In this document: in pieces, positions 50,913 through 63,975 of the stretch
Layout of the letters: the number at the start of each line of letters is the position of its first letter
Position numbering within the stretch: position 1 is the first letter of the stretch
Assembly (NCBI GenBank): GCA_018141785.1
Contig: CP073341.1
Coordinates: 1,969,422-2,033,421 of the forward strand
Source of the DNA: Candidatus Paraprochloron terpiosi LD05
GTDB taxonomy: Bacteria > Cyanobacteriota > Cyanobacteriia > Cyanobacteriales > Prochloraceae
Direction of reading: 5' to 3'
Length of the DNA: 64,000 nt
Notes under the pieces: model-generated
What the model saw: the letters and a program-made list of their open reading frames with translations, nothing else
The model's database searches: none
Told to the model about the DNA's origin: nothing
Position numbers and translations under genes: made by a program

Positions 50913-51512
50913 ATGGCCTATAGCGATTTTAAAACTCTATCCAAAGTAATAACGACTTTCGAGCTATCCGTTGATGAGACGTGTCACCTATTTACAGAGA
51001 TAGCTCCAATTATACCCAGTGATTATCTCCAAAGAACCCTAGATGAATATTTGCCTCTTGTAAATGCTATTAACACAGAAAAAGCCCGTTCTGAATTGAT
51101 TATTGCGCCAGTACTTTTGGAAGTCAGACGTATCTTCAACTTTCAGATTGGTTTTTTTTCAGGAACAGATTTTACTGTGGATCCTGAAGTTGGACTCAAT
51201 GGTTATTGTGATTATATCCTAAGTTATTCTTCAGAAATATATGAGATTCAATCCCCTGTGGTAACCCTAGTGGAAGCCAAGAATGAAAATATTAAGGGGG
51301 GGTTGGGACAATGTATTGCAGAAATGGTAGCTGCTCAAAGGTTTAATCAACAACAAGGTAATGAAATTAAAACCATTTACGGCGCAGTTACTACCGGAAC
51401 CGCTTGGAAGTTCATAAAACTTGCAGAACAAGTGGTTTTTATCGATTTAAGTGATTATTATATTAAAGAAGTGGATAAAATTTTAGGTATTTTGGCATTT
51501 CCTTTTTCCTAA
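50913..51512 (+). CDS. Putative PD-(D/E)XK nuclease-like protein
   Basis: A 199-residue soluble protein. GLNGYCDYILSYS followed about 25 residues later by VTLVEAKNENIKGGLGQCIA reproduces the D...ExK...Q pattern of PD-(D/E)XK enzymes. I know similar stand-alone cyanobacterial proteins without assigned function. It converges with the histidine kinase gene (4-bp overlap at the 3' ends). Its DNA source or target cannot be judged. Confidence 0.6.
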   Translation: MAYSDFKTLSKVITTFELSVDETCHLFTEIAPIIPSDYLQRTLDEYLPLVNAINTEKARSELIIAPVLLEVRRIFNFQIGFFSGTDFTVDPEVGLNGYCDYILSYSSEIYEIQSPVVTLVEAKNENIKGGLGQCIAEMVAAQRFNQQQGNEIKTIYGAVTTGTAWKFIKLAEQVVFIDLSDYYIKEVDKILGILAFPFS

Positions 51513-52894
51513 CAACTGCTCAAATTCTTGTGTGTAGTGCTATAGATAGGCAATCGAACGGTAAAAGTACTGCCTTTATCTAATTCGCTTTCTACTTCAA
51601 TACTACCACCATGGGAGTTCGAGATCGCCTTGGCAATAGGTAAACCTAAACCAAATCCTCCAGTTTTCCGAGAGCGATCTTCCCCCGCTCGATAAAATCG
51701 TTCAAAAATCCGCGACTTATCTTTCATCCCAATACCTATTCCTGTATCTTTCACCTTAATTAAAGCAAAACCATGACACCTATCTAAAATCAGAGTTACT
51801 TTCCCCTCCCTAGGAGTATAATTAATAGCATTAGTCACTAAATTAGCTACCATGCGATATAACTGAGCCTCATTTCCCCTCACTTGTAATTCTGAGCTTA
51901 GGTTAAAATCCACCACTAATTCTACATTAGCCTCTCTAGCTAAAGCAGCTAGTTCCTCAGCAATATCGTTAACTATATCTTGGAGTATAATCAACTCACC
52001 AGTTGCAACTGGTAAATCTGGGCGCTCCATCCCCGCTAACAGCAACAAATCTCCTACCAACTGAGAAAGGCGATTATTCTGACGCTGCACTACTTCCAAA
52101 GTACATCGCGCTTCATCTTCATTTAAAGAAGGTAGCTGCAAACTGGATTCTACTGTTGCTCCAACCGCAGCTAGAGGTGTGCGTAACTCATGAGCAGCAT
52201 CAGCAGTAAATTGTTGCATTTGTTGATAAGATTGATAAATAGGTTCCATGGCTAATGCAGCCAACCACCAACTGGCAATACCCACCAATAGCATGATTAA
52301 AGGTAATCCCACCAGGATAATCCATCTTACCGCCCCTACATAATCATCGAAGTCTGACTGGTTGCGCCCTATTTGCAAATATCCCCAATCTTGATTATTT
52401 TTAGTATGCAAGGGGAGGGTAATTTGACGATAACGGATATTTTGATTGTCTTTAAGAGTATACCATTTGGGTTCCGTTTCCGTCAATCTCACCGAGGCTG
52501 GGATAAAATTGCCGGCGATCGCCACTAACTCTCCCGAAATATTCACAAAATGGATATAATAATTATCAGATAGGTTAATTTTACTGGCAATATGCCTCTG
52601 GTTATCTATTGTATTATGGAAACAAGGAGCTGTCAATAAACACAAATTGGGCAAAAGTTGGTTTATTTCTGGCTCTAACTTACCAGGTTCTTTAAGTAAA
52701 GGTTCTATACTATCATGGAGAGTACCGGCAACAGATTCCACCTCTCTATCTATAGTTATCCTATGAGCGTGGGCGATGGCTTCATACATTCCCAAAGCAG
52801 ATATACTCAAAATCCCTCCCATGACACCCGCATACCAAATCGCCAGTCTCCCTCGTCTCTGTTTAAATAGCTTATTTTGTGACCTAAATCCCAT
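51509..52894 (-). CDS. Two-component sensor histidine kinase (RppB/NrsS/CopS-like)
   Basis: A 461-residue membrane kinase: first membrane segment at about 17-38, a periplasmic sensor domain of roughly 150 residues containing NLCLLTAPCFHN, second segment at about 190-215, H-box HELRTPLAAVG, N-box NLVTNAINYTP and G-boxes KDTGIGIG and GFGLGLPIAKA. The paired Cys with His in the sensor loop could bind metal. It resembles the cyanobacterial kinases for Ni, Cu or redox signals. The cognate regulator (53800) is separated from it by a yefM-yoeB pair. Confidence 0.85.
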   Translation of the reverse strand: MGFRSQNKLFKQRRGRLAIWYAGVMGGILSISALGMYEAIAHAHRITIDREVESVAGTLHDSIEPLLKEPGKLEPEINQLLPNLCLLTAPCFHNTIDNQRHIASKINLSDNYYIHFVNISGELVAIAGNFIPASVRLTETEPKWYTLKDNQNIRYRQITLPLHTKNNQDWGYLQIGRNQSDFDDYVGAVRWIILVGLPLIMLLVGIASWWLAALAMEPIYQSYQQMQQFTADAAHELRTPLAAVGATVESSLQLPSLNEDEARCTLEVVQRQNNRLSQLVGDLLLLAGMERPDLPVATGELIILQDIVNDIAEELAALAREANVELVVDFNLSSELQVRGNEAQLYRMVANLVTNAINYTPREGKVTLILDRCHGFALIKVKDTGIGIGMKDKSRIFERFYRAGEDRSRKTGGFGLGLPIAKAISNSHGGSIEVESELDKGSTFTVRLPIYSTTHKNLSSC

Positions 52895-52959: not shown

Positions 52960-53292
52960 TCACGAGCTTTCCTCATAGTGATAGCGAGCTTGGAGAAAAT
53001 CAATGCGTTCTTTCCTCACTCGATATATTAGTCGGTGTTCACGAGTGATTCGGCGCGACCAAGTATCAGGATCTAAGTGCTTAAGCAATTCTGGTTTACC
53101 GATACCTTGGAAGGGGTCTTTCATGACTGCTGTGACGAGATCAAACACTTTATCGGCTGTTTGTTTGTCGGTTCTGCACCACCAACGACAATCTTCCCGA
53201 AAACGGTTGGTGAAGAGAGGATATCGAGAAGGTATTTCTAATTCTGACGACCTTGGAAGATTAGATTTTGATTTTTTTTTCTTATCTTTCAA
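52960..53292 (-). CDS. yoeB: YoeB/Txe-family ribosome-dependent mRNA interferase
   Basis: A 110-residue protein whose C-terminal 85 residues are the YoeB fold: FREDCRWWCRTDKQTADKVF, GIGKPELLKHLDPDTWSRRI, EHRLIYRVRKE and the terminal ARYHY. The catalytic Glu, Arg, His and Tyr positions are all represented. It has an extra Lys-rich N-terminus (KDKKKKSKSN), possibly from a start too far upstream. Its start overlaps the antitoxin gene by 11 bp. Confidence 0.85.
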   Translation of the reverse strand: MKDKKKKSKSNLPRSSELEIPSRYPLFTNRFREDCRWWCRTDKQTADKVFDLVTAVMKDPFQGIGKPELLKHLDPDTWSRRITREHRLIYRVRKERIDFLQARYHYEESS

Positions 53293-53578
53293 TACCTAGA
53301 TCCTCCCGCAGTTGATCTAAAGTATGAGGGGAAGAGGGTTCAACATAATCCCACCGTCGAGACTCTTCTAATGCTTCCAAGAGACGACGAGCGTTGGTGG
53401 GCGATCGCAGCAAATAAACAGTTTCTAACAAACGGCGCAGTTCATTAGCAGTCAACAAAGCGATATCCTGATGACCAGAACGTTTAATCACTGCAATAGT
53501 ATTCTCTCTTTCTATTTGCTCTAACAGAGGGGCTAAGTTTTCTTGTGCTTGGGTGTAAGTGGTTTGGAGTTCAAACAT
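53282..53578 (-). CDS. yefM: YefM/Phd-family antitoxin
   Basis: A 98-residue Phd/YefM protein: TYTQAQENLAPLLEQIEREN then TIAVIKRSGHQDIALLTANELRRLLETVYLL is the family core, followed by a flexible acidic tail that would wrap the toxin. It precedes and overlaps yoeB. It would bind its own promoter. It interrupts the regulator-kinase gene pair. Confidence 0.85.
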   Translation of the reverse strand: MFELQTTYTQAQENLAPLLEQIERENTIAVIKRSGHQDIALLTANELRRLLETVYLLRSPTNARRLLEALEESRRWDYVEPSSPHTLDQLREDLGIER

Positions 53579-53680
53579 TTTAATTGTTGTTTCGGCGGTT
53601 TATAGAGTAAGGTATTGATAGCGGTTTTTAATTATCTACAATAAATCATTATTCGAGTTTTGTCAAGGAATTTTTTGGGT

Positions 53681-53758
53681 TTCGCGCAAAGACGCCAAGG
53701 CGCAAAGTTTCCTTATAATAAGGATTTGTTGGGTCATCTTTAAACCCTGTAGGGGTTT
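53681..53758. repeat. Heptamer repeat and AAACCC/GGGGTTT hairpin upstream of yefM
   Basis: cgcgcaaagacgccaaggcg at 53685-53704 and taaaccctgtaggggtttga at 53741-53760. The second unit recurs as aaaccccgtaggggttt at 59128. It lies between the response-regulator stop and yefM. Confidence 0.6.
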
Positions 53759-53799: not shown

Positions 53800-54474
53800 C
53801 TACGGTACAAAACGATATCCCAAACCATAGACAGTTTCAATCACTTTTTCACAGTTATACTGAGCTAGTTTTTTCCGCAGCAAACGCATTTGTGCAGCCA
53901 CCACATTACTCATGGGTTCTGCACCTATTTCCCAAAGTCTATCTAAAATGCGATCTCTGGTTAAAACTTGATTTGGGTGTTGGAGAAAATATTCTAACAA
54001 TTGAAACTCCTTGACAGTTAAATCAATCTTATTCTCCCCATACCAAACCATATGAGTATTATAATCCAAAGTGAAGCCCCCCACTTGTAATTGTTGGGGT
54101 TGTAACTGAGGGTAACGCCGTTGTAGAGCGCGGAGTCGTGCTAATAATTCTCTCATCCCAAAAGGCTTAATCAAATAATCATCAGCCCCGGCGTCTAAAC
54201 CCGTCACTTTATCATCCTCAGCGTCTTTCGCCGTTAGCATTAAAATGGGTATTTTATCCTTATGGGAGCGCACCCGTTTTACCAGTTCTAATCCTGACAT
54301 TCCTGGGAGCAACCAATCTACAATAGCTAGAGTATATTCAGTCCACTGATTATCTAAATAATACCATGCTTCCGTACCATCCAAAACCCAGTCTACTATA
54401 TAAGCTTCTTGAGTCAAAGATTTCTTGATTGCCCCTCCCAAATCAGGTTCATCTTCCACCAATAATAACCGCAT
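53800..54474 (-). CDS. OmpR-family response regulator (RppA/NrsR/CopR-like)
   Basis: A 224-residue regulator. Receiver domain (1-115) has the acidic pair EDE, the phosphorylated Asp in LAIVDWLLPGMSG and the Lys in LIKPFG. The winged helix (about 128-224) has VKEFQLLEYFLQHPNQVLTR and GLGYRFVP. It lies 3 bp downstream of the outer-membrane protein gene. It is the natural partner of the kinase at 51509 and probably binds the TTTCAT direct repeats at 56705-56744; both links are inference. Confidence 0.87.
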   Translation of the reverse strand: MRLLLVEDEPDLGGAIKKSLTQEAYIVDWVLDGTEAWYYLDNQWTEYTLAIVDWLLPGMSGLELVKRVRSHKDKIPILMLTAKDAEDDKVTGLDAGADDYLIKPFGMRELLARLRALQRRYPQLQPQQLQVGGFTLDYNTHMVWYGENKIDLTVKEFQLLEYFLQHPNQVLTRDRILDRLWEIGAEPMSNVVAAQMRLLRKKLAQYNCEKVIETVYGLGYRFVP

Positions 54475-54477
54475 AAC

Positions 54478-55230
54478 TCATAAAGAATGTTGAAATCCAG
54501 CAGTAATCCTAAAATCAGGAGAATCAGCCGTTAAACCAGCCCCTGCACCAACTGTGAGCACAGTTAAAGGATGAACTTGGTGACGTACTCCCAATTCTAA
54601 CACATAAGCATCCCGCTCTTCCTCCTCTTCCTGTTCATAGACAAAATCAGTCACCAAAATAGTTTCCGAACCTAAACGGCGACTATAACCCAAAATAGCC
54701 CTTAGACGATTCCTCCTTTCATCGTTACTATCGTAAGTATAAGCTACATTTAAATGGAGGCGATCTACATCAACTGCTTTACCCAAAGTTTTGGTGGCGA
54801 TTAACTTAATAGTACCCTCAAACCCTTCCTCATCAGATGATGTAGGGAAATCCACACTCCCAGAAAGAGCAAAAGCAGGAGTACTCAATCCTTCCGCATT
54901 AAAATTGTAAAACAACTCCAACCCCACATTTCCGATTCCATCCTCAACAGCAGAGCCAAACTGGAAGGGTAGAGTAATTCTACCTTGCCAATTGGGGGCA
55001 AAACCAAATTCTATTCTGGATTCTAACCCAAATTCCTCCCCATTCTCAGTTTGTTGGTACAAAAATTGTCCTTGTAACTCAATCCCTTTATAGGGTATAG
55101 GATAAGCATCCTCCACCTCCGTCGGTAGCCCTTCTTCCAAATTGAGGTGATCCGCAGCTTTTACCATTCCTGAACCCATAAAACCCCATATTACCAAGGC
55201 TATGGCTATTCTCTTCCCTATTAATTTCAT
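54478..55230 (-). CDS. Exported beta-barrel-like outer membrane protein
   Basis: A 250-residue protein with a signal peptide (cleavage after VKA, residue 25) and alternating beta strands ending in a C-terminal aromatic-type strand (FRITAGFQHSL). It resembles the family labelled 'MetA-pathway of phenol degradation', a group of small outer-membrane channels. Sits between the His/Met-rich exported protein gene and the response regulator in one operon. Possibly a metal or small-solute channel; no substrate can be given. Confidence 0.65.
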   Translation of the reverse strand: MKLIGKRIAIALVIWGFMGSGMVKAADHLNLEEGLPTEVEDAYPIPYKGIELQGQFLYQQTENGEEFGLESRIEFGFAPNWQGRITLPFQFGSAVEDGIGNVGLELFYNFNAEGLSTPAFALSGSVDFPTSSDEEGFEGTIKLIATKTLGKAVDVDRLHLNVAYTYDSNDERRNRLRAILGYSRRLGSETILVTDFVYEQEEEEERDAYVLELGVRHQVHPLTVLTVGAGAGLTADSPDFRITAGFQHSL

Positions 55231-55287
55231 TTTTCCCTTTACTCCTACTAAAATCTGCGCCTCTGCGCCTCTGTGTGAAACAATCCC

Positions 55288-56652
55288 CTAATTCATAAAA
55301 GCCCCAGCCTCAGGTTCTTGCTCCATAGAAATAGGTTCAATATCGGGAAGATTGGCATATTTTTGTTCCCAACCCTTCAACATAGCCTCAATCATTATGG
55401 GGGGAATTTCTCCAGGTTCCCGCACTGCTGGAGAAAGGTTCATATCGGGCATAATCTCCATCATAGCATCCAGAAAAGAACCGGGAATTTCTCCCTCTTG
55501 AATACCCGGAGTCAGTTTCAATTTCAACTGGGCTTTCAGTTGCTGTTGTACTTCTGGACTTATACTACCATGGTGCATAGATCCATGACTTCCATGATGT
55601 TCCATCATCTCATTCAGCATTTCCATCATAATCCCCGTCATGGCTCCATCCACAGTTTTCAACCAATCGTCATAAACCAAGGGATTGATATTGGCCTTGG
55701 GAGTAGTAAACTTCCGCACTAACTTCTCATCTCCCGGTTGATAACTCATAGCGTCCAAAACCCGATAGAGTTCCTTTCGCTTTTGAGCTATCGTCCAACC
55801 CTCATAGGCAAAAATATCGTAAGTAATACCGTGGAGCATATGCAGGTTATCAAATACATTAGCCGTTTCTGGAGATAGACGACTGTAGCGAGGAGAACCT
55901 TCCCGACTCAGCAGCATGCGCATGGGGGGGTTAGGAATGACATGTTCCCGGAATAGATCCTCCATTTTCTCAATCATCCTATCCTGCTCCTCATCATTAC
56001 CTCCTATCATCATGGACTCATAGACAGCAGGATGCCACCAGTGAGCAGCATAAAAGAAATTGTTGTTTTTGGTATAATAATTCCGGGTGAGGCTAAAATA
56101 GGGCTTCATCATTACCCCAGCGCGACGCATGGTTACATCTAAAGGAGCGGGACTGAGAACAATATCCTTGTAAGTGGATGTATAGTAGTCATAGACTTCC
56201 TTCAGCGCCTTTTCTTTTTCTTCCCAAGGAATACTTTTCGCCGCCATCACATCTTCAGTCATTTCATGGAGTAAGTGAACCGAGTCAATAGTGCGGAAAA
56301 GTCGCCAAGTGGCGCGAGCTGCATAAGGAGCATATAATTCCATTGTTGGCTCGATGCGAGGTGGGTTATTGTAGACAGCAATAATTTCCTCGTAAAGTTT
56401 AGTATCCGCTTTAGCGTGATTCTGGAAAGGAGTTAAAAGTAAAACATCGTGGAGTTTACTGTGGGCGAAATGAAGCGCTCCTGCTACCCGGTAACTACGA
56501 CGATGACGGTTGTAGAAAGCTAGTTGGTAAGGGGTGCGGGGGTGAGCGATGCCATTTCTTTGTTCCCCTCGTAGGGTTTGGGGTACTGCAACTATAGCTA
56601 AAGTAGCGGCGATCGCCGCCGTTATGAGTTTTTCGAGCCGTTTACCTTTCAT
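55288..56652 (-). CDS. His/Met-rich exported protein of unknown function
   Basis: A 454-residue protein with a signal peptide (residues 1-30). The body is mostly helical and I recognise no domain. It holds many His and Met residues, with a cluster MMEHHGSHGSMHHGS near residue 360 and Met-rich helices (MTGIMMEMLNEMM, FLDAMMEIMPDMN). Such clusters bind Cu+ or other soft metals. It is the first gene of an operon with the outer-membrane protein and response regulator, and divergent from two small membrane proteins with their own His cluster. A periplasmic metal sensor, store or carrier is plausible but unproven. Confidence 0.6.
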   Translation of the reverse strand: MKGKRLEKLITAAIAATLAIVAVPQTLRGEQRNGIAHPRTPYQLAFYNRHRRSYRVAGALHFAHSKLHDVLLLTPFQNHAKADTKLYEEIIAVYNNPPRIEPTMELYAPYAARATWRLFRTIDSVHLLHEMTEDVMAAKSIPWEEKEKALKEVYDYYTSTYKDIVLSPAPLDVTMRRAGVMMKPYFSLTRNYYTKNNNFFYAAHWWHPAVYESMMIGGNDEEQDRMIEKMEDLFREHVIPNPPMRMLLSREGSPRYSRLSPETANVFDNLHMLHGITYDIFAYEGWTIAQKRKELYRVLDAMSYQPGDEKLVRKFTTPKANINPLVYDDWLKTVDGAMTGIMMEMLNEMMEHHGSHGSMHHGSISPEVQQQLKAQLKLKLTPGIQEGEIPGSFLDAMMEIMPDMNLSPAVREPGEIPPIMIEAMLKGWEQKYANLPDIEPISMEQEPEAGAFMN

Positions 56653-56704
56653 AGTCTTTGAGAGATAATCATTTTTCTGCTTGTTTTTACCTTCTCAAAG
56701 AAAT

Positions 56705-56744
56705 GTGAAATCCCGATGAAATCCTCCTTTCATTTTCATTTCAT
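56705..56744. promoter_or_regulatory. Two TTTCAT-N5-TTTCAT type operators between divergent genes
   Basis: Plus strand 56728-56744: TTTCAT-TTTCA-TTTCAT, a perfect direct repeat with 11-bp spacing. Minus strand 56721-56705: TTTCAT-CGGGA-TTTCAC, the same arrangement facing the other way. Direct hexamers spaced by five bases suit a tandem OmpR-family dimer, one site for each divergent transcript. As I recall, a motif of this kind was described for the copper regulator CopR of Synechocystis. Confidence 0.65.
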
Positions 56745-56769
56745 ATTTTCTTCCTAAACAGGATAGAAT

Positions 56770-57063
56770 ATGAAATTGAAGCTAATCATTGCTACCCAGA
56801 CGAAGTTTGCACTCCAAACTCAACCCTTACTAGCCCACAGTGGACACCAACACGGTACGGAGCACGTTCAAGAAGAGAAAAAAGCCCTTCCCGAAGAACC
56901 AACCAGCTCCGAGATAACCCAACCTTCCCAACTCTCAGAACCTGCTATAATTTCCCATAGCAGCACCAATTTTATCCCCCAACCAGGAGAATTAATCTTA
57001 TTGTTACTATTAACTTTTCCATGGATCTTGTTTTTAATCAAACAGAAAATTAATAATCAATAG
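56770..57063 (+). CDS. Small His-containing membrane protein
   Basis: A 97-residue protein with the sequence LLAHSGHQHGTEHVQEE near the N-terminus (four His in ten residues), a Pro/Ser-rich middle and one C-terminal membrane segment (LILLLLLTFPWILFLI). The likely topology places the His cluster outside. It is divergent from the His/Met-rich gene and shares its operator region. A metal-binding accessory role is inferred. The start at 56770 lacks a classic ribosome site. Confidence 0.55.
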   Translation: MKLKLIIATQTKFALQTQPLLAHSGHQHGTEHVQEEKKALPEEPTSSEITQPSQLSEPAIISHSSTNFIPQPGELILLLLLTFPWILFLIKQKINNQ

Positions 57064-57102
57064 TAATCCTCATTTCTAGAGTTCCATTGTGCTATACTAA
57101 CT

Positions 57103-57390
57103 ATGGTAATTAATAAAGCCTCCCTCCGTCAACTCCACTCTTCCCTTGCACCCATCGTCATTTTGCCAGTGCTTTTGACACTCATAACAGGTTCCCTATT
57201 TCAGGTGGCAGTACTCACTGGCAAAAGTAATGAATTTAGCTGGCTGTTAGAATTGCACCGAGGTAAATTTGGTCGGATTAACTTAGAAATGATTTATCCT
57301 TTTCTCAACGCTTTCAGTCTTTTAATGCTATCATCAACTGGAATAACTATCTGGTTCCAAACCAGACAGCGTCGTCACAAAAAATATTAA
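57103..57390 (+). CDS. Small PepSY-TM-like membrane protein
   Basis: A 95-residue protein with two membrane segments. LRQLHSSLAPIVILPVLLTL, then ITGSLF and a later LLELHRGKFG with LLMLSSTGITIWFQTRQR, follow the layout of PepSY-associated membrane proteins (helix with His, TG, second His, helix with TG and basic end). PepSY-TM proteins often act in metal or siderophore reduction. It lies 39 bp after the His-containing gene, probably one transcript. Confidence 0.55.
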   Translation: MVINKASLRQLHSSLAPIVILPVLLTLITGSLFQVAVLTGKSNEFSWLLELHRGKFGRINLEMIYPFLNAFSLLMLSSTGITIWFQTRQRRHKKY

Positions 57391-59442: not shown

Positions 59443-60687
59443 ATGAGTAGCATTAAAGCACAGTACAAAGCAACAGATAAAGCTTTCCACGTTGAAGGCT
59501 ACGAGAAAATTGAATTTAGCCTGATGTATCAGGATGGGGCATTCCAGATTGGCAGCACCGAGATTGCCAACAGTTACAAAGAGTTTGGGCGTTGCCTCAT
59601 GGTTGTGGATGAGACGGTTTACCAACTCTATGGGGAGCAAATCCGCCAATACTTCCATCACTACCAAATTCAGCTCAAGGTTTTCCCCATCACCATTAAG
59701 GAAACCGATAAAACAATCCAGAGCTTTGAGAAAATTGTAGATGCTTTTGCCGACTTTGGCTTAGTCCGCAAAGAACCCGTGCTCGTAGTGGGTGGGGGTT
59801 TAATTACGGACGTCACCGGATTTGCCTGTTCTGCCTATCGCCGCAGTAGCAACTACATCCGCGTTCCTACCACATTAATTGGTCTCATTGACGCCAGTGT
59901 AGCCATTAAAGTTGCCGTCAACCATGGCAAATTGAAGAATCGTCTGGGTGCCTATCACGCATCCAAAAAGGTGATTTTGGACTTCTCCTTCTTAAAGACC
60001 CTCCCCCAAAGTCAGATTCGCAACGGCATGGCAGAGCTCATCAAAATTGCCGTGGTTGCCAATGGGGAAATCTTTAATCTGTTGGAACAGTATGGTAAAG
60101 ACCTGCTCTACACCCATTTCGGCTATCTCAATGGAACTCCTGAACTGCGAGAAATAGCCCATAAAGTGACCTACGACGCCATCGACACCATGTTGCAGCT
60201 GGAGGTGCCCAACCTCCATGAACTGGACTTAGATCGGGTAATTGCCTATGGTCACACCTGGAGTCCCACTTTGGAACTGGCTCCAGAAATTCCCATGTAC
60301 CATGGTCACGGCGTCAATATTGACATGGCACTGTCCGCCACCATTGCCTGGTTGCGGGGATACATCACCACCCAAGACCGGGACCGGATCTTAGGACTCA
60401 TGAGCCGTATTGGTCTAGCTTTGGATAGCCCCTACCTAACCCCGGAACTCCTCTGGAAAGCAACCCAGTCTATCACCCTCACCCGAGATGGTTTGCAGCG
60501 AGCAGCGGTTCCCAAACCCATTGGAACTTGCTACTTCATCAATGACCTGAAAAAAGATGAATTAGAGCGAGCCTTGGTGACCCACAAGGAAATTTGCAGC
60601 ACCATGGCTCGGGATGGAGATGGAGTTGACATGTACATGACCTTGGATCAACCCAAGGAAAATAGTCCTATTTTGGTTGGGGCATAA
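59443..60687 (+). CDS. mysA: Demethyl-4-deoxygadusol synthase
   Basis: A 414-residue sugar-phosphate cyclase of the dehydroquinate-synthase fold. It closes sedoheptulose 7-phosphate to demethyl-4-deoxygadusol, the first MAA step. Visible motifs: NAD site [38 protein letters not shown], and metal ligands in [10 protein letters not shown] and [13 protein letters not shown]. Context with an O-methyltransferase and two ATP-grasp ligases identifies it as MysA. Five bases separate it from mysB. Confidence 0.95.
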
Positions 60688-60692
60688 ATTTC

Positions 60693-61508
60693 ATGGCAAT
60701 TTCTAGACCCGTTACACCCCTGGGTATTCTGGCAGAAAAGTTAGCAAGATTAGCCCACCAGGTAAAAGAGACATCAGATATTCCAACGGACATAGCAAAA
60801 GCCATCGCTGAATGTAATCAGTTAGCCTCCGGCTTAGATCCCTACCTGGAAGCCTGCACCACCAGTCCATCCAAACCTTTAGTCGCCTTAGACGAAAAGA
60901 CCAAAGCAGAAGACTGGAGCCAGCGTTTTTCTGATGGAGAAACTGTACGCCAGTTAGAACAGGAAATGCTTTCCGGGCACATTGAGGGACAAACATTGAA
61001 AATGATTGTCCACATGACCAAAGCCAAAAAGGTTCTGGAAATAGGCATGTTCACCGGCTATTCTGCCCTGGCTATGGCGGAGAGCCTTCCCCAGGACGGG
61101 CAACTCATTGCCTGTGAAGTGGATAGCTACGTAGCCGACTTTGCCCAAAACTGTTTCCAGTCCAGTCCCCATGGTAGCAAAATTACCGTTCAGGTTGGTC
61201 CCGCTCTAGATACTATGCATCAGTTAGCTGATGAGGGACAGTCCTTCGATTTAGTCTTCATTGATGCTGACAAAAAAGAGTATTGGGATTACTTCCAAGT
61301 GCTCTTAGATAGGAATCTCTTGTCCCCTGGTGGATTTATTTGTGTAGACAATACCTTATATCAGGGACAAGCCTACCTAAGCAATAGTAACCGTAGCCCC
61401 AATGGGGAGGCGATCGCTAACTTCAACCAACAGATAGCCGCAGATAAGCGGGTTGAGCAGGTTCTCCTGCCCCTGCGGGATGGGTTCACCATCATTCGAC
61501 GAATTTAG
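60693..61508 (+). CDS. mysB: 4-deoxygadusol O-methyltransferase
   Basis: A 271-residue SAM-dependent methyltransferase of the catechol-OMT type. The SAM motif is VLEIGMFTGYSALAMAESLP, the metal and substrate site DLVFIDADKKEYWDYF, and GGFICVDNTL. It turns demethyl-4-deoxygadusol into 4-deoxygadusol. It follows mysA by 5 bp and precedes mysC by 84 bp. Confidence 0.95.
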   Translation: MAISRPVTPLGILAEKLARLAHQVKETSDIPTDIAKAIAECNQLASGLDPYLEACTTSPSKPLVALDEKTKAEDWSQRFSDGETVRQLEQEMLSGHIEGQTLKMIVHMTKAKKVLEIGMFTGYSALAMAESLPQDGQLIACEVDSYVADFAQNCFQSSPHGSKITVQVGPALDTMHQLADEGQSFDLVFIDADKKEYWDYFQVLLDRNLLSPGGFICVDNTLYQGQAYLSNSNRSPNGEAIANFNQQIAADKRVEQVLLPLRDGFTIIRRI

Positions 61509-61515
61509 TGCAATA

Positions 61516-61552
61516 GTAGGTTGGGTAGAGCGCAAGCGTTACCCAACTTATT
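61516..61552. repeat. Palindrome between mysB and mysC
   Basis: gtaggttgggtagagcgcaa then gcgttacccaactta: AGTTGGGTA-type arms form a hairpin of about 9 bp. It is of the same family as the unit at 52911. It might attenuate transcription into mysC, which is only a guess. Confidence 0.55.
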
Positions 61553-61592
61553 ATTTCTGATTATGATAAAGTTAGCTTGATATTCCTGTGCA

Positions 61593-62942
61593 ATGCATCA
61601 CTTTGTAAACAAAAGTAAACTTATTCTCAAAACCCTAGGAACCCTCTTCTTACTCCTGGTAATATTTCCCTTTTCTTTGCTCCTTGTGGGGATTTCACTG
61701 TTGTGGAACTTAATTACAGCCCCCTTAAAACAAAAGGTGACAACTCCCTACCCACAGCAAACAGTGATGTTAACCGGGGGGAAAATGACCAAAGCCTTGC
61801 AACTAGCCCGCTCTTTCCAGACAGCAGGACATCGGGTAATTTTAGTAGAAACCCACAAATACTGGCTCTCAGGACATCGTTTTTCTAGAGCCGTAGATCT
61901 ATTTTGTACCGTACCAGCACCCGAACAAGATCCAAAAAGCTATTATCAGGGTCTGCTAGACATAGTGAAAACCCACAAAGTAGACATCTTTATTCCCGTT
62001 TCCAGTCCTGTAGCCAGCTACTATGATTCCCTCGCCAAGCCATTACTGTCCAACCATTGCCAGGTATTCCATTTTGATGCTCACATCACCAAAATGTTGG
62101 ACGACAAATTTACCTTCTGCCAACAAGCCCAATCTCTAGGTCTTTCTGCACCCAAGTCATTTTTAATTACGGACCCCCAACAAATTCTCAAATTTGACTT
62201 TGCAAGAGATGGCAGTGAGTACATTCTCAAGAGTATTCCCTACGATTCAGTCCATCGTTTAGACATGACAAGACTCCCCTGTCCAAACCTAGAAGAGCAT
62301 ATTAGTAAATTACCCATCAGCAAAGAAAAACCCTGGATTATGCAGGAATTTATCCCAGGTCAGGAATACTGCACCCACAGTACAGTGAGAGATGGAAAAA
62401 TTCGCCTCCATGGATGTTCCCAGTCTTCAGCCTTTCAAGTAAATTACAAACACGTAGATAATCCAGCAATTTACAACTGGGTAAAAGACTTTGTTCAGGG
62501 ATTAAATTTGACCGGGCAAATTTCCTTCGACTTCATTTTGGACCCACGAGGTCAAGTTTATCCCATCGAATGTAATCCCCGAACCCATACAGCCATTACT
62601 ATGTTCCATGATCATCCCGGGTTAGCCGACGCCTATCTCAAATCCCCCGTCAATCTCGATGCTCCACCCATTGAACCCCTACCCCATAGTCCCAGTACCT
62701 ATTGGCTTTATCACGAATTGTGGCGATTAACCGAAATCCGTTCTTGGCAGCAACTACAAAATTGGCTCGAAAAAATCACTCAGGGAACCGACGCCATATT
62801 TAGAGTAAATGATCCCCTCCCATTCCTCATGGTTCACCATTGGCAAATTCCCCTCTTGCTCCTCAAGCAGCTCTACCAGCTTAGAGACTGGCTGCGCATT
62901 GACTTCAATATTGGTAAATTAGTGGAATTAGGGGGAGATTAG
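61593..62942 (+). CDS. mysC: ATP-grasp mycosporine-glycine synthase
   Basis: A 449-residue ATP-grasp ligase. An N-terminal hydrophobic segment (about 10-42, TLFLLLVIFPFSLLLVGISL) anchors it to the membrane, as in other MysC proteins. The ATP-grasp region includes MLDDKFTFCQQAQSLGL, ILKSIPYDS, WIMQEFIPGQEYCTHS and the metal site GQVYPIECNPRTHT. It joins glycine to 4-deoxygadusol to give mycosporine-glycine. Separated from mysD by one base. Confidence 0.94.
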   Translation: MHHFVNKSKLILKTLGTLFLLLVIFPFSLLLVGISLLWNLITAPLKQKVTTPYPQQTVMLTGGKMTKALQLARSFQTAGHRVILVETHKYWLSGHRFSRAVDLFCTVPAPEQDPKSYYQGLLDIVKTHKVDIFIPVSSPVASYYDSLAKPLLSNHCQVFHFDAHITKMLDDKFTFCQQAQSLGLSAPKSFLITDPQQILKFDFARDGSEYILKSIPYDSVHRLDMTRLPCPNLEEHISKLPISKEKPWIMQEFIPGQEYCTHSTVRDGKIRLHGCSQSSAFQVNYKHVDNPAIYNWVKDFVQGLNLTGQISFDFILDPRGQVYPIECNPRTHTAITMFHDHPGLADAYLKSPVNLDAPPIEPLPHSPSTYWLYHELWRLTEIRSWQQLQNWLEKITQGTDAIFRVNDPLPFLMVHHWQIPLLLLKQLYQLRDWLRIDFNIGKLVELGGD

Positions 62943-62943
62943 G

Positions 62944-63975
62944 ATGCGAGTTCTACATCTGGTAGGTTCCAGTGTCTCAGACTTTTACTACCAGCTCTCA
63001 ATGGTATACGCCAAAGAAGTATTGCAGCCCCCCAGTGTTAGTAATTACTACGCAGTTGTAATACCCGGTGGTTTTTGGCAGTTAGGGAAATCCTTAGATT
63101 CCCTATCAGAGAAACTTTCCCTCCAAGAGATGATTTCCCGGCTACCAGAAATTGACTTAGTAGTGCCTCATATGTTTTGTATACCTGGTATGACAAGTTT
63201 CCGAGCCTTTTTTGAGGACATCCTCCGGTTACCCCTGGTAGGCTCCCCATCTAGTTGTACCGCCCTAGCAGCTAATAAAGCTCAGACACGGAGTGTTGTA
63301 TCAGCAGCTGGTGTCCCTGTTGCTAAAGCACAGCAGCTGCGCCCAGGGGACACCCTAACCATGAAGCCTCCTTTTGTAGTTAAACCCAACTCAGAAGATA
63401 ACTCCTTAGGTGTAACCCTAGTTTGGAACAAGGAGCAGATCCCGGAAGCATTGCAAATAGGCTTTCAATTAGATGACACCTTATTAGTAGAAGAGTACAT
63501 CCCTGGAAGAGAACTTCGGGTAGCCGTAATTGAGCGTCAGGGTCAGCTGTACGTCCCAGCCATGATAGAGTACCTAGTCACCGAGTCCAACCCCATTAGA
63601 ACCCTACAGGATAAGTACCAACTCAAATCAGACGGAACCCCAGCTCGTCAGCCTGAAAAGCCAGTAGCAACACCTGTCTGTCCCGCAGTCGTCACACCAG
63701 AACTATCAGAAAAACTCGCCCATGCTGCCAAGAAGGCTCATGTCGCTCTCGGCTGTCGTCATTACTCCTTATATGACTTTCGGGTCCACGCCGAAACAGG
63801 TCAACCCTACATGCTTGAAGCCGGTTTATTCTGGTCTTTCGGCAAAATCAGCATGATTTCCCGGATGATTCTTGCTGACGGCCAGAATTTAGAGGACATA
63901 GTCATGGAGTTGTGGAATAGTATAGCCTACGGGAGGAAGGACGAAAATTTAAACCCTGAAAGGTTTAAAACATAG
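62944..63975 (+). CDS. mysD: D-Ala-D-Ala-ligase-like MAA synthase
   Basis: A 343-residue ATP-grasp ligase of the D-Ala-D-Ala ligase type. KPPFVVKPNSEDNSLGVTLV, LLVEEYIPGRELRVAVIERQ and the site YDFRVHAETGQPYMLEAGLF are visible. It adds a second amino acid (Ser, Thr or Gly) to mycosporine-glycine, giving disubstituted MAAs such as shinorine or porphyra-334. A TTTAAACC/GGTTTAAA palindrome lies within its last codons (63948-63969). No NRPS-type mysE is in the window. Confidence 0.94.
   Translation: MRVLHLVGSSVSDFYYQLSMVYAKEVLQPPSVSNYYAVVIPGGFWQLGKSLDSLSEKLSLQEMISRLPEIDLVVPHMFCIPGMTSFRAFFEDILRLPLVGSPSSCTALAANKAQTRSVVSAAGVPVAKAQQLRPGDTLTMKPPFVVKPNSEDNSLGVTLVWNKEQIPEALQIGFQLDDTLLVEEYIPGRELRVAVIERQGQLYVPAMIEYLVTESNPIRTLQDKYQLKSDGTPARQPEKPVATPVCPAVVTPELSEKLAHAAKKAHVALGCRHYSLYDFRVHAETGQPYMLEAGLFWSFGKISMISRMILADGQNLEDIVMELWNSIAYGRKDENLNPERFKT

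Follow-up and report, generated by a model that had tools for sequence, protein, structure and literature searches.

A putative metal-stress locus of Candidatus Paraprochloron terpiosi LD05 with RppA/RppB-type regulators, an undescribed exported protein and an outer-membrane barrel

Gene content and control sites

The locus described here lies in a stretch of 64,000 nucleotides (the window) from contig CP073341.1 of the cyanobacterium Candidatus Paraprochloron terpiosi LD05. It comprises a two-component regulator pair of the RppA/RppB family, two operator sites between divergent transcription units, an exported protein of 454 amino acids (the 454-aa protein) encoded next to an outer-membrane barrel, and two small membrane proteins. 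An earlier note on this DNA had claimed five open reading frames, for the regulator, an outer-membrane protein, the 454-aa protein, a small protein and a PepSY-type protein, and all five lie where it placed them; the kinase gene rppB, outside its range, was absent from it. The leftward genes (454-aa, barrel, rppA, yefM-yoeB and rppB) all share one strand. The features are as follows.

51509..52894, minus strand: rppB, sensor histidine kinase (CopS/NrsS/RppB family); NCBIfam NF041735, 619 bits, cut-off 400
52960..53578, minus strand: yefM-yoeB toxin-antitoxin pair between rppA and rppB; PF06769 and PF02604, with TIGR02116 above cut-off
53800..54474, minus strand: rppA, OmpR-type response regulator (CopR/NrsR/RppA family); NCBIfam NF041734, 384 bits, cut-off 250
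54478..55230, minus strand: 12-strand beta-barrel of the outer membrane (FapF/COG4313-type channel), an obligate neighbour to the 454-aa gene
55288..56652, minus strand: cysteine-free 454-aa exported protein, undescribed family; a helical hairpin repeated four times, six invariant His, C-terminal part rich in Met and His
56705..56721, minus strand: CopR/RppA-type operator TTTCAT-CGGGA-TTTCAC, facing the 454-aa gene
56728..56744, plus strand: CopR/RppA-type operator TTTCAT-TTTCA-TTTCAT, facing the small-protein gene
56770..57063, plus strand: 97-aa small protein with a C-terminal membrane helix; orthologues in loci L002, L003 and L004
57103..57390, plus strand: 95-aa two-helix PepSY_TM-like membrane protein, conserved H12 and H52; PF03929 E 2.8e-4, below cut-off

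Both the regulator and the kinase were matched at the equivalog level, and they are 65% and 47% identical to CopR and CopS of Synechocystis plasmid pSYSX, respectively. The two genes are adjacent or nearly overlapping in Calothrix, in Rivularia, in locus L005 and on pSYSX, and the YefM/YoeB pair is therefore probably an insertion into this operon, one that may uncouple the expression of kinase and regulator. The copMRS/copBAC genes of pSYSX are annotated as DUF305-rppA-rppB-RND, and the putative CopR site is also present at nrs; the NCBI name RppAB thus spans both copper (CopRS) and nickel (NrsRS) systems and by itself gives no clue to the metal. RppAB genes were also seen on Nostocales plasmids (L052:2680-5127 and L054:2987-5446). 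Their neighbours there are DUF2808 genes or small unnamed ones, a cysteine synthase and a ~440-residue unnamed protein lacking an NCBIfam match, a context not described as nrs or cop.

The putative CopR site has been given as TTCATN4-5TTCAT, and was also found between nrsRS and nrsBACD (PMC4182526). On pSYSX it reads TTTCATCCTGATTTCAT before copM and TTTCATCTTGGTTTCAT before copB. The earlier note had reported a TTTCAT-N5-TTTCAT pair facing both ways; the divergent pair does exist, but its minus-strand copy ends in C rather than T. Matches to TTTCAT-N5-TTTCA[TC] numbered two in the window against 0.06 expected, and none of 100 shuffles gave two. The whole genome (3.84 Mb) holds only these two, both within 40 bases between the divergent units. 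As the window shuffle rate predicts a few chance matches genome-wide, it is the position of the two sites that is telling, not their number. The operator that marks an RppA/RppB system, TTTCAT-N5-TTTCAT ahead of target genes, is found in relatives as well. Paraprochloron (L002) and Calothrix (L004) each have it facing both ways; in Rivularia (L003) it precedes the small-protein gene, and L003 and L004 both carry it upstream of rppA. It further stands ahead of the CusB and DUF305 genes in L037 and, with one mismatch, ahead of the 454-aa gene in L005 and L033.

The host genome has no heavy-metal-efflux resistance-nodulation-division (HME-RND) pump above the TIGR00914 cut-off, and no DUF305 protein (hence no DUF305/CopM), so that the usual CopR targets, CopBAC and CopM, are missing. 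There is no NrsA-type RND pump beside the regulators, and no NrsD-type permease in the locus, the rest of the genome not having been searched for NrsD. The only perfect CopR-type sites of this genome serve the 454-aa and barrel genes and the two small membrane proteins.

The exported protein and its barrel partner

The 454-aa protein carries four repeats of one motif and a Met/His-rich stretch, as listed.

56446..56472, minus strand: repeat 1, HxxHxxxxD (H61, H64, D69); H64 invariant among 17 homologues
56251..56277, minus strand: repeat 2, HxxHxxxxD (H126, H129, D134); all three invariant among 17 homologues
56017..56043, minus strand: repeat 3, HxxHxxxxE (H204, H207, E212); H204 invariant, 212 always acidic
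55816..55842, minus strand: repeat 4, HxxHxxxxD (H271, H274, D279); H271 and H274 invariant, D279 in 15 of 17
55570..55644, minus strand: Met/His-rich stretch, residues 337-361, from the translation

In 2000 shuffles the HxxH-x4-[D/E] motif turned up 0.09 times on average and never more than 2 times, against four copies in the protein, and the four repeat segments score ~7 standard deviations over random segment sets. Seven residues (H64, H126, H129, H204, H271, H274 and D134) are invariant in all 17 homologues, and position 69 is acidic in them with a single exception. Met and His make up 11% of the mature protein, which has no cysteine; the Met/His-rich stretch varies in length among homologues while keeping its richness in these residues. 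An AlphaFold model built with 10 sequences is all helix (predicted local distance difference test, pLDDT, 81.6; predicted template modelling score, pTM, 0.82). It shows four hairpins, each a long helix followed by a shorter one (51-73/76-95, 116-137/143-160, 194-217/221-238 and 261-282/288-302), every long helix bearing one of the H-x2-H-x4-[DE] motifs; after the fourth hairpin come the Met/His-rich stretch and further helices. Comparison of the protein with type-3 (six-His) dicopper sites showed six invariant His in four predicted helices, with HxxH spacing and no PDB fold match.

Neither the protein alone nor the family gave a sequence match in Pfam, NCBIfam or PDB, and Foldseek of the model against PDB returned nothing below E 1.3; these searches rule out a known enzyme. 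PF02520 appeared for four of the 17 homologues (best E 0.002) and was judged a chance hit, being absent from the window protein and 12 others. The genes are under purifying selection: between the window and L002 the ratio of nonsynonymous to synonymous substitution rates (dN/dS) is ~0.2 for the 454-aa gene, and the PepSY gene has no nonsynonymous changes.

The 17 homologues come from cyanobacteria, Planctomycetota, Desulfobacterota and plasmids of Methylobacterium and Gemmatirosa, and form a close group and a remote one (L034-L037 and L018) in a tree. Two Methylobacterium plasmids carry homologues at 44-47% identity, and one Gemmatirosa plasmid a homologue at 25%. Among the cyanobacterial genomes sampled, 6 of 390 (single-sequence search) or 8 of 386 (profile search) have a homologue. 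For the phylum of L007 the figure is 1 of 395 genomes and for that of L006 it is 2 of 294, these counts taking in the seed genomes. Searches of these last two phyla added a single homologue, and the family is therefore rare and patchy. By eye, the Methylobacterium homologues (L016:11902-13269 and L017:11914-13323) begin with a twin-arginine-like signal, unlike the others, a sequence pattern hinting that the protein is exported in folded form.

The barrel gene adjoins the 454-aa gene in every readable locus of both groups; the L002 contig ends before it. Its AlphaFold model (pTM 0.71) has the 12 strands and the fold of FapF/COG4313 channels, the Foldseek matches being FapF at E 1.1e-10 and the COG4313 channel 4rl8 at E 4.6e-7. 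The PF13557 signal is weak (21.2 bits in the window, against a gathering cut-off of 22), although 12 of 16 homologues match this family, the best at E 3e-9. In contrast to FapF/COG4313 channels, to which it is 14-15% identical, the barrel has its own conserved mature N-terminus (DHxNLEEGxP, around D27, H28, N30, P36 and D41), always stands beside the 454-aa gene and shows no link to amyloid or aromatic genes. A barrel relative, 26% identical, was noticed on plasmid pGOX1 of Gluconobacter oxydans (L051:6001-6723), annotated as a shorter hypothetical protein beside a CrcB fluoride exporter gene and others. No 454-aa homologue is annotated next to it, so the barrel family is wider than the pair.

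Genomic neighbours and proposed function

Genes of copper-handling kinds flank the pair in several phyla, some of the identities having been assigned by eye. L006 has a CopA-type ATPase, a RicR/CsoR-type repressor (below the model cut-off), DUF326 (the copper-storage family Csp), CusB and CusA; L007 has DUF326 and a multicopper oxidase, L004 a multicopper oxidase and RppAB, and L032 two P-type ATPase genes, DUF326 and YHS. In L037 the pair lies beside CusA, CusB, DUF305, MerR, an HMA ATPase, a cupredoxin and RppAB, and in L008 beside a CusA/CzcA pump and its adaptor. RppAB and a MerR-type regulator accompany it in L005 and L033, and a MerR-type regulator is immediately upstream in L034 and L036. 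The association with copper genes, judged qualitatively from the kinds of neighbouring genes in these sequences, appears strong in kind.

The genes and their families, the operator, the pairing of the two genes and the invariant residues can be read directly from the DNA. From these we infer, with a probability of about 0.62, a metal-stress locus under RppA/RppB, in which copper (less likely nickel) induces periplasmic metal binding and detoxification by a new protein-plus-channel pair. The metal, its binding, its chemistry and the direction of transport would be as follows. Excess periplasmic copper, or less likely nickel, would activate RppB; phosphorylated RppA would then bind the direct repeats and switch on both directions. 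The 454-aa protein would bind, and perhaps redox-convert, copper in the periplasm, and the 12-strand barrel would be the outer-membrane exit for the metal or for metal bound to a small ligand. In this host the pair would stand in for the CopBAC pump and CopM.

The earlier note is borne out in its central proposal, a metal-response locus with an undescribed exported protein, by regulators of the CopRS/NrsRS kind, whose metal sensing is established by experiment, the CopR-type operator and the homologous pairs amid copper genes in several phyla. Its statement that the parts do not match nrs or cop did not hold: regulators and operator do match, and the difference is confined to the effector genes. 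With Synechocystis copMRS/copBAC the locus shares the regulator family, the TTTCAT-N5-TTTCAT operator and a Met/His-rich exported protein as a target, but its targets are divergent, its host lacks the HME-RND pump and DUF305/CopM, and its effectors are the unrelated 454-aa protein and the barrel. With nrsRS/nrsBACD it shares the regulator family and a divergent promoter carrying this type of site (PMC4182526), whereas NrsB, NrsA, NrsC and NrsD genes are absent from the locus and no RND pump above cut-off occurs in the host genome. The locus would function like cop, yet by content it is neither cop nor nrs, as the pump and CopM, both looked for, are absent. CopM, PcoE and other Met/His-rich periplasmic copper binders resemble the 454-aa protein in being exported, rich in His and Met and under a metal two-component system; no relation in sequence or fold was found, and the 454-aa protein differs in its length and in its predicted folded core of four HxxH repeats.

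Several points weigh against a role in copper defence. Nickel, too, is sensed within the RppAB family, and in Synechocystis the family has a link to redox control, RppA there having also been described as redox- and pigment-linked (PMC13421787). The FapF and COG4313 relatives of the barrel transport polypeptide or hydrophobic molecules, not metals, and the neighbourhoods of L017, L018 and L035 show no clear copper gene.

One alternative is that RppAB here is NrsRS, and that the pair is a tolerance module for nickel (or cobalt). NrsS/NrsR control the nickel operon in Synechocystis (PMC4284471), the same site type lies between nrsRS and nrsBACD, and the RppAB name does not separate the two metals. 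The neighbours of the pair in other phyla are mostly of copper-specific kinds (CopA-type ATPase, multicopper oxidase, DUF326, CusB and DUF305), however, and Met-rich sequence, as in the tail of the 454-aa protein, generally favours Cu(I), so that we regard nickel as unlikely. The constant adjacency of the two genes, together with FapF, a polypeptide transporter (PMC5557850), as the top fold match of the barrel, could also mean that the barrel is dedicated to secreting the 454-aa protein, in the way FapF exports FapC, yielding an extracellular metal scavenger or surface polymer; some 30% of CopM is extracellular (PMC4335983). The cargo of FapF consists of unfolded amyloid chains, whereas the 454-aa protein is predicted to be folded; the twin-arginine-like signal in Methylobacterium and the small molecules served by COG4313 channels of the same fold also argue against this arrangement, which we consider improbable. 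More improbable again is an enzymatic or envelope role of the pair apart from metal defence (for example in redox or light stress), with metal genes nearby by chance or through clustering in islands. The redox and pigment link of RppA and the pair loci lacking a copper gene nearby would fit such a role, but the operator in the window is of the CopR type, and most of the homologous pairs lie next to copper genes or to metal regulators (RppAB or MerR-type).

Known periplasmic copper defence in Gram-negative bacteria comprises RND pumps, P-type ATPases, multicopper oxidases and small metal sponges. A folded six-His protein with an outer-membrane channel, apparently alone under a CopR-type switch here, would extend this repertoire by a new effector module, and would allow a function to be tested for two protein families recorded publicly as hypothetical. 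While the regulator and operator are already known, the effector pair has no precedent in any library searched and is in no described system that we found, literature searches on it having returned nothing. A bolder and rather doubtful extension of the copper-defence reading is that the 454-aa protein represents a new fold class of periplasmic copper protein, with the four HxxH hairpins building one di- or multinuclear His/Asp centre, and that with its dedicated channel it provides pump-independent copper detoxification in at least five phyla, partly plasmid-borne. As a genetic system for studying it the window is compact, having one regulator pair, two operator sites and no rival perfect sites elsewhere in the genome.

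The rightward small proteins and other observations

The His cluster which the earlier note had singled out in the 97-aa protein is not conserved in Rivularia or Calothrix, where just the C-terminal membrane part is kept; its signal peptide in the window looks degenerate and is unconvincing. The 95-aa protein, PepSY-like in the earlier note, corresponds to a two-helix piece of PepSY_TM, its match falling under the Pfam cut-off. It is 71% identical to the Calothrix copy, and dN/dS between L003 and L004 is 0.13.

Promoter, terminator and repeat scans gave nothing useful. Short intergenic stretches at 53680-53715 and 55250-55285, a repeat type seen between genes to either side of those for the barrel and the regulator, are rich in CGCAAAGACGCCAAGGCGCAAAG and CTGCGCCTCTGCGCCTCTGTG. 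Further along the window, at 59443-63300, genes of a mycosporine-type sunscreen cluster were recognised by eye (AroB-like synthase, O-methyltransferase and ATP-grasp ligase); the next ligase gene appears split into short frames, both here and in L002.

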